35,351 nt of DNA from an uncultured delta proteobacterium. Lineage in GTDB: Bacteria; RBG-13-61-14; DRUE01. Where the stretch lies: positions 1 through 35,351 of the forward strand of contig CAIYYW010000156.1 of NCBI GenBank assembly GCA_903930515.1, written 5' to 3'. The notes under the pieces are model-generated. The model saw nothing but the letters and a program-made list of their open reading frames with translations, did not search any database and was not told the DNA's origin. Each line of letters starts with the position of its first letter. The first letter of the stretch is position 1. Below, one piece after another: positions 4,480 to 8,670 of the stretch. The position numbers were made by a program, and so were the translations under genes.

Positions 4480-5529
4480 TTATTTCAAATCGTTCCTGGT
4501 CAGCACCCGGACCGGCACCTTGAGGTCGCGGGGAACAATGGATCCGGAGAGAATTTTCACCACTCCGTTCGCGACCATCTCCCCGGTCTTGGACGGCTGG
4601 GTGTCCACGGTTCCACGGTACATCCCGCCCTGGCGGATGGATTCCAAGGCTTTCATCTCCGCGTCAATTCCGATGATGATGTTCTGGTTGGGATTCTTCT
4701 TGGCCTGTTCCATTGCCAGGAGCGCGCCGTATGCCCCGGCGTCATTGATGCTCACCACCACATTGATCTCGGGATGGGCCTGGAGCGCGTTCTCCATTGA
4801 CTTGAGTCCGTTATCCTGGGTGGCGCCCAAATATCTGCCGATGATCTTGGCGTTGGGGGCGAGTTGGTGAAGGGCCTTTTCAATCTCGTTCGCCCGGATC
4901 ACCACATTGGGCATATCCGGATAGTCCAGGATCGCGACCGTCGCCTTCCCGGCCATCTCCTCCCGGATCAACTTGGCGGCAAACTCGCCCGCGGCCCTTC
5001 CCAAATCGGCGTCCTCAATGGAAATGCTGATCCCGTTGAAGGCGGATTCGCGGCCGGCGTATTGCACGATGTAAACCCCCTGGTCCGCGGCTTCCTGCAA
5101 AGCGAGCTGGAGAACCTTGGGGTCCAGAACGCAGATCACGATCACCTTTGACCCCGCGGAGGTGTAATTTTCAATCGCGGAAATCTGCGCCTCGGATTTC
5201 ATCTCCGGGTCAACCATCTGCGCCTTGAGACCATAGCTTTCCAAAGTCTTCCTGGCCGAGGCCGCAACCGCGTAATGATACTCGGTCTTGAGCGTGCACG
5301 GGACAATGCCGACAAAACTTTTGCCCAGGCCGGCTTGGGCCTTGCTGATTTCATCCGGCGTAATGCTCAGGTCTTCCGCGCTTCCCATCTTGCCCGCAAC
5401 GATCTTGGGCTTGCCCGCAGCCAAAGTCTTCCCGGCTTGTCCGGGCATGGCCGGCTCGGGCTGCGGCTTGCAATAACTCATGCCCATGCCAATCAAAATC
5501 ATCAGACTCACAATTTTCCAAATTTTCAT
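4480..5529 (-). CDS. Periplasmic sugar-binding protein (type 1 PBP, ribose/xylose type)
   Basis: A 349-residue protein. ATG at 5529 is preferred because GAGGGGAG lies directly upstream; an in-frame ATG at 5547 has no ribosome binding site. The N-terminus is a signal sequence with Cys20 preceded by M-S-Y, a non-canonical lipobox, so a lipid anchor is possible but not certain. The rest matches the LacI-like periplasmic binding fold: two Rossmann-like lobes, with NVVVSINDAGAYGALLAME and IIIGIDAEMKALESI typical of Peripla_BP_4. It should bind a monosaccharide for an ABC importer or a sensor. No permease or ATPase gene lies in the window, so it is an orphan here. It starts 10 bases after the nuclease gene of the AT-rich island. 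Confidence 0.85.
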   Translation of the reverse strand: MKIWKIVSLMILIGMGMSYCKPQPEPAMPGQAGKTLAAGKPKIVAGKMGSAEDLSITPDEISKAQAGLGKSFVGIVPCTLKTEYHYAVAASARKTLESYGLKAQMVDPEMKSEAQISAIENYTSAGSKVIVICVLDPKVLQLALQEAADQGVYIVQYAGRESAFNGISISIEDADLGRAAGEFAAKLIREEMAGKATVAILDYPDMPNVVIRANEIEKALHQLAPNAKIIGRYLGATQDNGLKSMENALQAHPEINVVVSINDAGAYGALLAMEQAKKNPNQNIIIGIDAEMKALESIRQGGMYRGTVDTQPSKTGEMVANGVVKILSGSIVPRDLKVPVRVLTRNDLK

Positions 5530-5539
5530 TCTCCCCTCT

Positions 5540-6079
5540 CTATTCATAATACTCGTTTTTTAGATGGCAATGGGTTCCATTAAATTCTGTCCTCAACCGG
5601 CAGGCCGGTTTATCGCCTTTGGTAAAATAAATTAAATCCGCTTCCGACAATGGCCCGGCAACTTGCCCTGAAACAAACTCCAGGTAATCCTGTTTGCCCT
5701 TCTGGTATTCGAATTTAACGCAATAGAGGTGTTCATAAATACCTTTATTTTTTAGCTCGTCAACCACCGATGCGCTAAAAAGCCAGGTCGCCTCAAGATT
5801 TTGTCTGGATTCCTGGGTCTTGATATTCACATAAACTGTCTCCTCAAGCAGGATAATAACCACATCGTATCCCCGCCAGTTCTTGAACTTGACCTTATCC
5901 TTGCCAAAATAATCAATCATATAGTCAAGGGTGTGTTTTTCGATGACATCCGAGATCGTTCGGGACGATAGCGACAGGTGATGTTTCCCAATTTTGACTG
6001 GAATTTGCGCTGAATTTAGATGCGCGCGGCACTTTTCTGCAAATTTCTTCAGCGCTCTTTTAGACCCGGTCGGAGCCAA
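5540..6079 (-). CDS. Putative PD-(D/E)XK-type restriction endonuclease
   Basis: The frame is open from 6202, but the best start is TTG at 6079, with AAGGAG six bases upstream. That gives 179 residues overlapping the end of the zinc-ribbon gene by 20 bases. The core WRGYDVVIILLEETVYVNIKTQ fits the nuclease pattern D-x(n)-(D/E/N)-x-K, with Asp72, Asn85 and Lys87 (Asn in place of the usual Glu/Asp); Glu47 in the preceding helix may complete the site. I do not recognise a specific restriction-enzyme family. Its place as last gene of an operon with an N6-adenine methyltransferase supports a DNA-cutting role. The region is AT-richer than the flanking genes. Confidence is good for a nuclease and modest for specificity. 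Confidence 0.6.
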   Translation of the reverse strand: MAPTGSKRALKKFAEKCRAHLNSAQIPVKIGKHHLSLSSRTISDVIEKHTLDYMIDYFGKDKVKFKNWRGYDVVIILLEETVYVNIKTQESRQNLEATWLFSASVVDELKNKGIYEHLYCVKFEYQKGKQDYLEFVSGQVAGPLSEADLIYFTKGDKPACRLRTEFNGTHCHLKNEYYE

Positions 6080-6266
6080 CTTCCTCTCCTTTGATATAGG
6101 CAATGGCGCAATCAGGGCAAAGCGGTCCCCATCCTTCCTCGGTATTGAAGGCGTCATAAGGATCTGAGCCTTTCTTGACCTCGGCGGAATCCACATAGCC
6201 AAACCTTACATCAACAGCCATGGTTTTATCAGAATGCTTTTTCCGACATTGTTCACATTCCCACAT
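6060..6266 (-). CDS. Small four-cysteine zinc-ribbon protein of the restriction-like island
   Basis: A 68-residue protein starting at ATG 6266 behind GGAGG with a 6-base spacer. Cys4-x2-Cys7 and Cys50-x2-Cys53 form a likely C4 zinc site spanning almost the whole protein, with an acidic middle (YVDSAEVKKGSDPYDAF). I do not recognise a family. It lies 13 bases after the coiled-coil gene and overlaps the nuclease gene start by 20 bases, so it is translated within the same operon, probably with the nuclease translationally coupled to it. It could be a DNA- or protein-binding accessory or a regulator of the nuclease; this is inference only. Confidence 0.7.
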   Translation of the reverse strand: MWECEQCRKKHSDKTMAVDVRFGYVDSAEVKKGSDPYDAFNTEEGWGPLCPDCAIAYIKGEEVGSDRV

Positions 6267-6279
6267 TTGATCCCTCCGC

Positions 6280-6720
6280 CTATTCTTCCAGAATGCGGTT
6301 CAATTCTTCAACAATTTCCGGGATAGATCGGCTTAATGATCGCTCAATTCTTGCTCGGTTTCTTTCGATTTTTTGATCCAGTTGAACTTGGCGTTCATCA
6401 ATTCTTTGTTGAATTGTAGCGGTATCCGCGCCCTCTTGTTGGAGCCGCCGTCTCAAGACTCGAAGTTTATCTGCCTCCATCAATCTTACCAGCAGTTCAG
6501 CCAGATCCTGATTCCGAGGCATGTATTCAAGAACATCATTGGAACCGATTTTGTAAGTTAAGGGCTTAGCAATCTGTTCTCCCTCCGGGCCGCCCCTCCT
6601 AATCCTAACACGGCTCCTTTGGCTGGTCAGGGCCATATAAATCAAGACCTGGAATTCAATGGAAGCCCAATCTCCGGGGTTGTTATATAATCTGATTTCA
6701 ATTGGCGGTCGCCTGGGCAT
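6280..6720 (-). CDS. Unrecognised coiled-coil protein between methyltransferase and nuclease
   Basis: A 146-residue protein from ATG 6720, with AAGGAG 7 bases upstream inside the end of the methyltransferase gene. The two genes overlap by 23 bases. The first ~60 residues are mixed (IEIRLYNNPGDWASIEFQ, then a basic stretch RVRIRRGG). Residues ~75-146 are a charged heptad-like helix rich in Arg, Glu and Gln (RRRLQQEG, QQRIDERQVQLDQKIERN), predicted to form a coiled coil. I know no family for it. Its conserved-looking operon position suggests an accessory or scaffold subunit of the restriction-like system. It could instead be a regulator. Confidence 0.65.
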   Translation of the reverse strand: MPRRPPIEIRLYNNPGDWASIEFQVLIYMALTSQRSRVRIRRGGPEGEQIAKPLTYKIGSNDVLEYMPRNQDLAELLVRLMEADKLRVLRRRLQQEGADTATIQQRIDERQVQLDQKIERNRARIERSLSRSIPEIVEELNRILEE

Positions 6721-8185
6721 CCTGTATCTCCTTTCCATAATTAAGCAATTGATTTTCGAGATGATCTATAACATTTTTTATCTTCTGATCTCTTATTTGC
6801 TCTTCGGAATCATGGTCAGCAAGAATCCTCTTGAATTCCACCGATATGGCTTGTTGGATTTGGATGGGAACGATGGGAATCGGCAGTGACAGAAGATCGG
6901 TTTTATTTATGCTGACGGTACCCACCCCATGCTTTAACAGGCTGATTGAATCTTGACCAAACCGCGTTTTCAAATAGGCGACCAGAAAAAATGGATCAAT
7001 GCCTGTCACCCCGAAGATATGTAAATAATCGGATGCAACCCCTTCTTTTTCCTTGGAATCCACCATGGCGATTCTTCCCGCGCACCCTACGCCTACGCGA
7101 ACGAAGACAAGCTCTCCCACGCGAACATGGGCCTCGGGGGAATACATTTTGCTCTTGGGATCAATAAATTTCTTATCTCGTTCATAATCAATGCCGAGTT
7201 CGGTGATATTGGTGGCGTGCAAAAATCTCGCCCCCTTGGATGCAAAATTCCTTTCCTTGCCATACAGAGTCTTTCCGGTTTTGCAGTATGTGACAAATTG
7301 GCTCAAAGGCACGAACTTGAATCCTTTTCTTAGCAGAAGATGCAGGTTGCTTTCATTAAGCTTATGATGATATTCCCAGTCCATGCGGTTCCTAAGCTGT
7401 ATCCCGTTCAAAGAAATTGGATCGCCGATTATGCCCGGGCTTTGAAACCGGCAAAGCTTTGCAGAATAATGAAGGTTATGAGAGTTGCTTTTTTTCAATA
7501 TTAAGATGCTGGTTTTGGCAGAGGTATCCCGAAAAACGTGCCTGGGAAGACTTATGATGCAATGAACTTTGGTTTGAGCCAGGATAAATTGCCGAACATA
7601 GGCATATTGGGGGTTTGACAATATGCCGTCGGGAAGAATAATCACGATATGCCCATTGGCCCGAGCCAGGCTGATAAATTTTTCAAGAAAGAGCACCTCG
7701 ATGGCTTGGCCGCGCCGTAACTTTTTATTGTTGTGCGCCAGGCAAAAATCCCTTAAAGCCTCGGGGGCTTTGATGCGGTCAAACCAGCTGCTGAAAGGAG
7801 GATTTCCCAGGACCAGATCAAAGCCGCCTTTGGAGAGCACTTTGGCGATTTCGGCATTTTCCCATGTTTGCCTTTCCAGGCTGTTTGAGCAGTAAAGATG
7901 AGCCTTGAATGCATTCGCGCTCCTTATCTTGTGGATCATGCCCCGGTCAATGTCAATGCCGAAAAGGCTGGATGTTTGCCATAATTCGGATGCTGCAGAT
8001 AGAAAGGCCCCCTCTCCAACCGCTGGGTCAATGATGGCCTCGGGTTCTATTTCGGGCAGCAAGGAAAGCGCTTTTTTTACCACAGTCTCCGGAGTAAAAT
8101 ATTGGTTAAGCTTCTGTCGGTCATGATGCCGTCGCCGCTCACGGTTTTCAGATTTAAAGGCCCCATCTTGGTTAGTCCTTGCCAT
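6698..8185 (-). CDS. N6-adenine DNA methyltransferase with fused HsdS-like target-recognition domain
   Basis: A 495-residue protein from ATG 8185. The N-terminus has LNQYFTPETVVKKAL, like the FFTP segment of N6-adenine methylases. AdoMet motif I is DPAVGEGAF (residues 53-61) and the catalytic motif IV is NPPF (128-131). From ~290 to the end it resembles one HsdS-type target-recognition half: FVPLSQFVTYCKTGKTLYG, VRVGVGCAGRIAMV, then VGTVSINKTDLLSLPIPIVP and a terminal helix. It should methylate adenine within a specific sequence to protect host DNA. Unlike type IIG enzymes it carries no nuclease domain; a separate nuclease lies downstream. The gene is AT-richer than its neighbours, suggesting horizontal acquisition. 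A TTG start at 8212 was rejected because it lies inside the promoter. Confidence 0.88.
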   Translation of the reverse strand: MARTNQDGAFKSENRERRRHHDRQKLNQYFTPETVVKKALSLLPEIEPEAIIDPAVGEGAFLSAASELWQTSSLFGIDIDRGMIHKIRSANAFKAHLYCSNSLERQTWENAEIAKVLSKGGFDLVLGNPPFSSWFDRIKAPEALRDFCLAHNNKKLRRGQAIEVLFLEKFISLARANGHIVIILPDGILSNPQYAYVRQFILAQTKVHCIISLPRHVFRDTSAKTSILILKKSNSHNLHYSAKLCRFQSPGIIGDPISLNGIQLRNRMDWEYHHKLNESNLHLLLRKGFKFVPLSQFVTYCKTGKTLYGKERNFASKGARFLHATNITELGIDYERDKKFIDPKSKMYSPEAHVRVGELVFVRVGVGCAGRIAMVDSKEKEGVASDYLHIFGVTGIDPFFLVAYLKTRFGQDSISLLKHGVGTVSINKTDLLSLPIPIVPIQIQQAISVEFKRILADHDSEEQIRDQKIKNVIDHLENQLLNYGKEIQDAQATAN

Positions 8186-8197
8186 TTGACTTTTTAA

Positions 8198-8226
8198 ATT
8201 ATACCGAAGCAATTATCCAAAGTAAA
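8198..8226 (-). promoter_or_regulatory. Sigma-70 type promoter of the restriction-like operon
   Basis: On the minus strand, -35 TTTACT (8226-8221), a 17-base spacer and a perfect -10 TATAAT (8203-8198). The expected transcript start near 8191 leaves only a few bases before ATG 8185 and there is no Shine-Dalgarno sequence, so the methyltransferase mRNA is probably leaderless. Confidence 0.7.
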
Positions 8227-8238
8227 GTTGCGCTCGAC

Positions 8239-8670
8239 TCATTCCCCCATCACCTGCACACAAAAATTCCTTGCCAGGGGGCCGTCATATTCGGCGAAGT
8301 AGATGCGCTGGCGGGAGCCTTTGACGATTTTGCCGTTTTCAATCGGGAAGAAGGCGAAGTATCCGGAGATTACGCTCTTGAGATGAGCGGGGGCGTTGAA
8401 GGCGACCCTTCCGTCAATGTCCAAATAGCGGTTGTGATAGTAGCCGCTTCCCTCGGGCGCGAGCGAGCCGAGGTTGTTGAGCACATCCATTTCCAGGCAA
8501 GGCAGTCCCTCGGTGACCAGGATTCCGGAGGAGGTATGCATAGTGAGGATATTGACGACGCCATTTTTTACTTTGCTTTTCTTGACCGCGGCCTCAACCT
8601 CCGAGGTGATGTCAATCAGCTCCTGATCTTTTTTGGTCTGGACTTCCAGCTTCTCCAGCTTGATCTTCAT
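8239..8670 (-). CDS. YjbQ/UPF0047 family protein (secondary thiamine-phosphate synthase family)
   Basis: A 143-residue protein, the usual length of the YjbQ family. Matching family motifs are NILTMHTSSGILVTEG, the GYYHN segment, HLKSVISGYFAFFPIENG and RIYFAEYDGP near the C-terminus, ending VQVMGE. Members have weak thiamine-phosphate synthase activity, but their main role is not settled. ATG at 8670 overlaps the TGA of the amidohydrolase gene by one base (TGATG), with GGGGAGG upstream, so the two are translationally coupled and probably act in one pathway. The stop codon lies 12 bases from the -35 box of the restriction-like operon. Confidence 0.9.
   Translation of the reverse strand: MKIKLEKLEVQTKKDQELIDITSEVEAAVKKSKVKNGVVNILTMHTSSGILVTEGLPCLEMDVLNNLGSLAPEGSGYYHNRYLDIDGRVAFNAPAHLKSVISGYFAFFPIENGKIVKGSRQRIYFAEYDGPLARNFCVQVMGE

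Follow-up and report, generated by a model that had tools for sequence, protein, structure and literature searches.

Gene content and genomic context of the locus

In the window, by which we mean the whole 35,351-nucleotide stretch of DNA that was analysed, four genes form an operon on the minus strand, reading from position 8185 to 5540 between two ordinary genes. The first, M (6698..8185), encodes a putative gamma-class N6-adenine DNA methyltransferase whose C terminus carries a target recognition domain of the HsdS/TaqI type; translation from the ATG at 8185 yields 495 aa, and an in-frame TTG at 8212 represents an alternative, less likely start. The second gene, P2 (6280..6738), encodes 152 aa with a helical C-terminal half and appears to be an optional accessory gene; an alternative ATG at 6720 has a better ribosome-binding site and would give a product of 146 aa. 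P3 (6060..6266) is a conserved partner gene encoding an acidic C4 zinc-ribbon/treble-clef-like protein of 68 aa, and P4 (5540..6079) encodes a predicted restriction endonuclease with a PD-(D/E)XK fold of the EcoRV/HincII branch. The open frame of P4 extends from 6202; because the homologues begin at the TTG at 6079 and AAAGGAGAGGAAG precedes this codon, it was taken as the likely start, resulting in a protein of 179 aa. M and P2 overlap by 23-41 bp, P3 and P4 by 20 bp, and P2 and P3 are separated by 13 bp, as described in an earlier reading of this DNA from the letters alone (all genes overlapping or within 13 bases). A consensus scan located a promoter-like TTTACT-17-TATAAT upstream of M (8198..8226, minus strand), which is well placed and scores 10/12, but the number of such matches is not clearly higher than expected by chance. 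Homologues in distant phyla indicate that P3 and P4 are genuine coding genes, and a single homologue with 37% identity indicates the same for P2.

The operon is part of an inserted block (5542..8238, no strand assigned), delimited by a blastn junction in a genome of the same genus and by a GC content lower than that of its surroundings (45% in the cassette, 55-59% in the flanks). In the only genome of the same genus, G001, the sugar-binding-protein gene (window 4480-5541) abuts the 3' end of the UPF0047/YjbQ gene (window 8239-8320) at 90% identity (blastn), and this direct joining of the two flanking genes indicates that the segment between them was inserted in the window, with the caveat that the G001 junction contig holds just 80 bp of UPF0047 and then diverges. 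The full UPF0047 gene of G001 is located on a different contig with unrelated sequence behind it. The UPF0047/YjbQ 3' end is a possible integration hot spot (window 5541/8239; L079, corresponding to G001:C23; L080, 1570-1651): in G001, an 80-bp duplicate of the UPF0047 end lies beside the sugar-binding-protein gene, and the full copy is followed by another insert.

M is a methyltransferase of the ordinary type II layout

M matched the Pfam families PF02384 (N6_Mtase, 1e-25), PF07669 (Eco57I, 3e-12) and, above the cut-off, PF01420 (Methylase_S, 2e-6). A match to the PADLOC profile MTase_II (PDLC03311, 3.5e-69) covers residues 17-474 and thereby nearly the full length. The protein opens directly with the methyltransferase, carries an NPPF motif and a single recognition domain, and no nuclease domain was found in it with Pfam or PADLOC. 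A profile search yielded 15 relatives with 39-55% identity, and GNPPFS is invariant in the alignment of M with three of them. With all four reading frames on the minus strand, these matches bear out the sequence-only reading of a four-gene restriction-modification (R-M) operon with an N6-adenine methyltransferase fused to an HsdS-like recognition domain.

That reading had further set the operon against type IIG enzymes, in which the nuclease is fused to the methyltransferase. BsaXI and Eco57I indeed have related methyltransferase and recognition domains, but their nuclease is fused and here it is a separate gene. No nuclease is fused to M, and type IIG was rejected. Gamma-class methyltransferases accompany many type II nucleases, for example those of TaqI and HincII (PMC4081073). 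By its domain matches, M is an ordinary N6-adenine methyltransferase of the gamma class that carries a recognition domain in the same chain, a layout usual for type II systems, and the comparison with type IIG does not apply since a separate nuclease beside the methyltransferase is what this class commonly shows. A type I system was likewise rejected, as the operon contains no helicase/HsdR translocase gene and M has a single recognition domain.

The cassette is scattered over distant phyla

GTDB genomes were searched with the profile of M and three relatives, yielding 15 loci; as these were found through M, cassettes with another methyltransferase escape this search. P4 follows M in 11 of the 15, with 50-77% identity to P4 of the window, and nine of these 11 loci also have P3 adjacent to P4. 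Including the window, 10 of 12 intact cassettes contain P3. The two diverged cassettes L042 and L047 consist of M and an intact P4 without P3; in L044 the order is M-P2-P4-P3. In L038, M is intact, P3 is truncated and P4 is gone; at L045 and L050, an M of this family has unrelated genes beside it, and L048 is interrupted by a contig end. The host genomes are labelled as Neomarinimicrobiota, Stahlbacteria, Chloroflexota/Dehalococcoidia, Nitrospinota, Nitrospirae, Zixibacteria, Elusimicrobia, Desantisbacteria, Planctomycetales, Aenigmarchaeota and others, thus comprising bacterial phyla and one archaeon. This scatter, combined with the close similarity of the P4 proteins, indicates horizontal spread of the cassette. 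Homologues of P4, P3 and P2 were absent from the plasmids searched and P4 homologues from the phages searched; viral contigs yielded no P4 homologue and, for M, just one distant methyltransferase.

A P4 profile run on 296 genomes of the phylum that hosts L041 recovered two known cassettes and one remnant (L085, in genome G531), in which P3 is intact and P4 lacks about 124 internal residues. Survival of M (L038) or P3 (L085) after loss or deletion of P4 is as expected for a toxic nuclease.

In L036 (2577-2990) and L041 (2686-3183), M-P3-P4 is located between a beta-class methyltransferase and a type II nuclease gene (PADLOC PDLC03511), and remnants of these genes are present in L038, L039, L043 and L049, an arrangement of nested R-M systems.

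P3, and not P2, is a conserved component

The sequence-only reading had counted both small proteins as parts of the system. P2 occurs in 2 of the 12 cassettes, its sole homologue being located at the corresponding position behind M in L044. It gave no family match, no viral homologue and at most marginal matches in 240 other genomes. We conclude from the two occurrences that P2 is an optional extra and not a conserved component.

The claim held for P3. A P3 profile matched the window alone among 290 genomes and G396 alone, the host of L046, among 350 Chloroflexota; no host genome has more than one copy, which is always that of the cassette. Its position beside P4 in 10 of 12 cassettes and its confinement to cassettes or a cassette remnant in the approximately 640 genomes searched indicate that P3 is a real cassette component, although its absence from L042 and L047 shows that it is not universal. 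At the operon end of L044, P3 adjoins P4, indicating that P3 goes with P4 rather than with a fixed place after M. In L042, a different small zinc-ribbon protein ending in ...CPYCGEYVEG follows P4 (about 5300-5480); the same kind of protein is also present in the G001 insert (tail of L079).

In the alignment of ten P3 proteins, C4, C7, C50 and C53 (CxxC...CxxC) are invariant and the middle part is conserved; judged by these cysteines, P3 probably binds zinc. The AlphaFold2 model (pLDDT 79) is treble-clef-like with the second CxxC at a helix start, no helix-turn-helix (HTH) was detected, and a fold search against the PDB gave no significant match. A Cas8b match was taken as chance. All ten members have a pI of 4.2-4.7 and a net charge of -4 to -10, and this acidity argues against DNA binding and for a protein partner. 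The binding partner of P3 is most likely P4, for which it would serve as a subunit, a chaperone or a brake. It has no known counterpart in R-M systems and is linked to P4 across very distant bacteria.

P4 is a predicted nuclease with a non-canonical active site

P4 gave no credible match in Pfam, NCBIfam, PADLOC or the PDB sequences, and so represents a predicted nuclease family that is absent from these libraries. KwaB matches (0.0012) obtained for two of the P4 proteins were taken as chance. The AlphaFold2 model of P4 (pLDDT 84.5, pTM 0.82) was compared with the PDB by Foldseek; HincII and EcoRV were the top matches, with E values of 2e-4 to 1e-3 and a moderate TM score of about 0.5. P4 is predicted to belong to the EcoRV/HincII branch of the PD-(D/E)XK nucleases and would accordingly cleave DNA, and the structure prediction substantiates the earlier description of a PD-(D/E)XK-like protein.

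In the alignment of twelve P4 proteins, E47, W68-x-G70-Y71-D72 and N85-I-K87-T88 are invariant. The spacing of D72, N85 and K87 is usual for the motif and the same as in HincII; in 12 of 12 members, Asn occupies the usual D/E position of the (D/E)xK half-motif, and position 96 is always acidic (D/E). The catalytic residues of HincII are D114 and D127-I-K129, where P4 has N85-I-K87 instead. Those of EcoRV are D74...D90-I-K92 (PMC4081073), so that D72...N85-I-K87 of P4 corresponds to the EcoRV arrangement with D90 replaced by Asn. Active enzymes with a relocated acid in the PD-(D/E)XK motif are known (PMC551604; PMC4081073). E47 and D/E96 are candidate substitutes for the second catalytic acid; if no other carboxylate takes its place, the nuclease activity of P4 could be weak or lost.

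Do M and P4 share a target sequence?

Averaged over all pairs of the twelve cassettes, identity amounts to 55% in the catalytic part of M, 63% in the recognition part and 70% in P4, which is thus more conserved than M as a whole (58%). Compared with M of the window, M at each of the 11 P4-containing loci is more similar in the recognition domain than in the catalytic domain; the reverse applies to L045, which has no P4. The higher conservation of the recognition part relative to the catalytic part suggests that M and P4 may recognise one common target sequence. This pattern is suggestive only, because L050, with an unrelated second gene, also has the better conserved recognition domain.

A probable mobile type II R-M system with a dedicated zinc protein

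We consider it probable that the locus is a mobile, acquired and self-contained type II R-M system, formed by M and P4, with P3 as a dedicated zinc protein. M would use its C-terminal recognition domain to read a specific sequence and methylate an adenine within it, and P4, probably as a homodimer resembling EcoRV and HincII, would cut the same sequence when unmethylated, as in incoming phage or plasmid DNA. P3, translated together with P4, would most likely bind P4 or its dimer, not DNA, and be needed for folding, stability or controlled activity of P4; P2 would be an optional extra gene. The earlier proposal of an undescribed multi-subunit restriction or defence system was, in our view, overstated: no observation pointed to a four-subunit complex or to a new kind of defence. 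Among the named defence systems of PADLOC only M found a match (type II MTase), with none credible for P2, P3 or P4, and a literature search with selected terms found no description of such a cassette.

The closest known system is HincII/HindII (GTYRAC), in which, as in the cassette, a gamma-class N6A methyltransferase is combined with a separate nuclease of the EcoRV branch (PMC4081073). HincII is the best structural match of P4, yet sequence similarity is not detectable, HincII is longer (about 257 aa compared to 179 aa) and its system is not known to have a gene for a zinc protein such as P3. EcoRV shares the P4 fold and is likewise not known to have an accessory zinc protein, and its partner methyltransferase is of a different class from M. 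BslI, an alpha2beta2 restriction enzyme, likewise contains Cys4 zinc motifs and is built from two kinds of chain (PMC4081073). The zinc motifs of BslI sit inside its large subunits, whereas P3 is a separate acidic chain of 68 aa. P3 and P4 are co-inherited together with M, the observation that bears on a two-chain enzyme of the BslI or type IIT kind, in which both chains are required for cleavage.

P3 might play a more stringent role, the type II system then having three components and its D...NxK endonuclease being obligatorily switched or assembled by an acidic, treble-clef, non-DNA-binding zinc protein; we regard this as possible, with the balance against it. Less likely still is that P3 is an antidote that binds P4 and blocks its activity for as long as the host genome is not yet methylated. 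A small, acidic protein translationally coupled ahead of P4 in most cassettes would suit this role, as would the intact P3 beside the deleted P4 of L085, but L042 and L047 have an intact P4 without P3, and the one case in which P3 outlived P4 may be recent and due to chance.

Two further alternatives are both improbable. In the first, P3 regulates expression within an otherwise ordinary type II system, resembling R-M systems controlled by C proteins (AciI, PvuII and others), in which a small extra gene also lies next to that of the nuclease. The overlapping reading frames and the place of P3 between M and P4, where control genes often lie, are in line with this. However, C proteins are HTH DNA binders, and P3, a C4 protein with a pI below 5, no HTH and a negative charge throughout, is unlike a DNA binder and lies downstream of P4 in L044; the cassette differs in this from the class controlled by C proteins. 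In the second, P4 has ceased to be a nuclease and acts as a DNA-binding partner of M in a modification or epigenetic system, as the invariant N85 might suggest; but K87, D72 and E47 are likewise invariant over great distances, enzymes with a relocated acid are active, and P4 is lost or deleted in places where its neighbours remain. A five-gene system of the type IIT kind, with a second methyltransferase (M1) upstream and a second nuclease (R2) downstream, would fit the flanking beta-class MTase and PADLOC REase_II genes of L036 and L041 and the M1/R2 remnants at four other loci, but is very improbable as M-P3-P4 is intact with M1 and R2 decayed or absent at several loci, among them the window, L037, L040, L044 and L046.

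The proposed type II system adds a predicted nuclease family whose active site is non-canonical, together with a small zinc protein that accompanies this family in distant phyla; P3 and P4 jointly occupy a compact 0.7 kb. If P3 controls or completes P4, this would be another way in which R-M systems keep their nuclease in check.

Other genes were observed behind M-family methyltransferases. At L045/L029 (G040:C109), three genes unmatched in PADLOC follow that of the methyltransferase; they encode a 201-aa protein without known function, then a GHKL ATPase (HATPase_c_3), then a protein of 138 aa. The end of a related GHKL ATPase gene is located just upstream of P3 in L085 (G531:C62, 1-480). A separate methyltransferase-GHKL defence system having parts in common with the M-P3-P4 cassette is possible. 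At L050/L033 (6413-7408), a 331-aa protein without family match, possibly another unrecognised nuclease, is encoded directly behind the methyltransferase.
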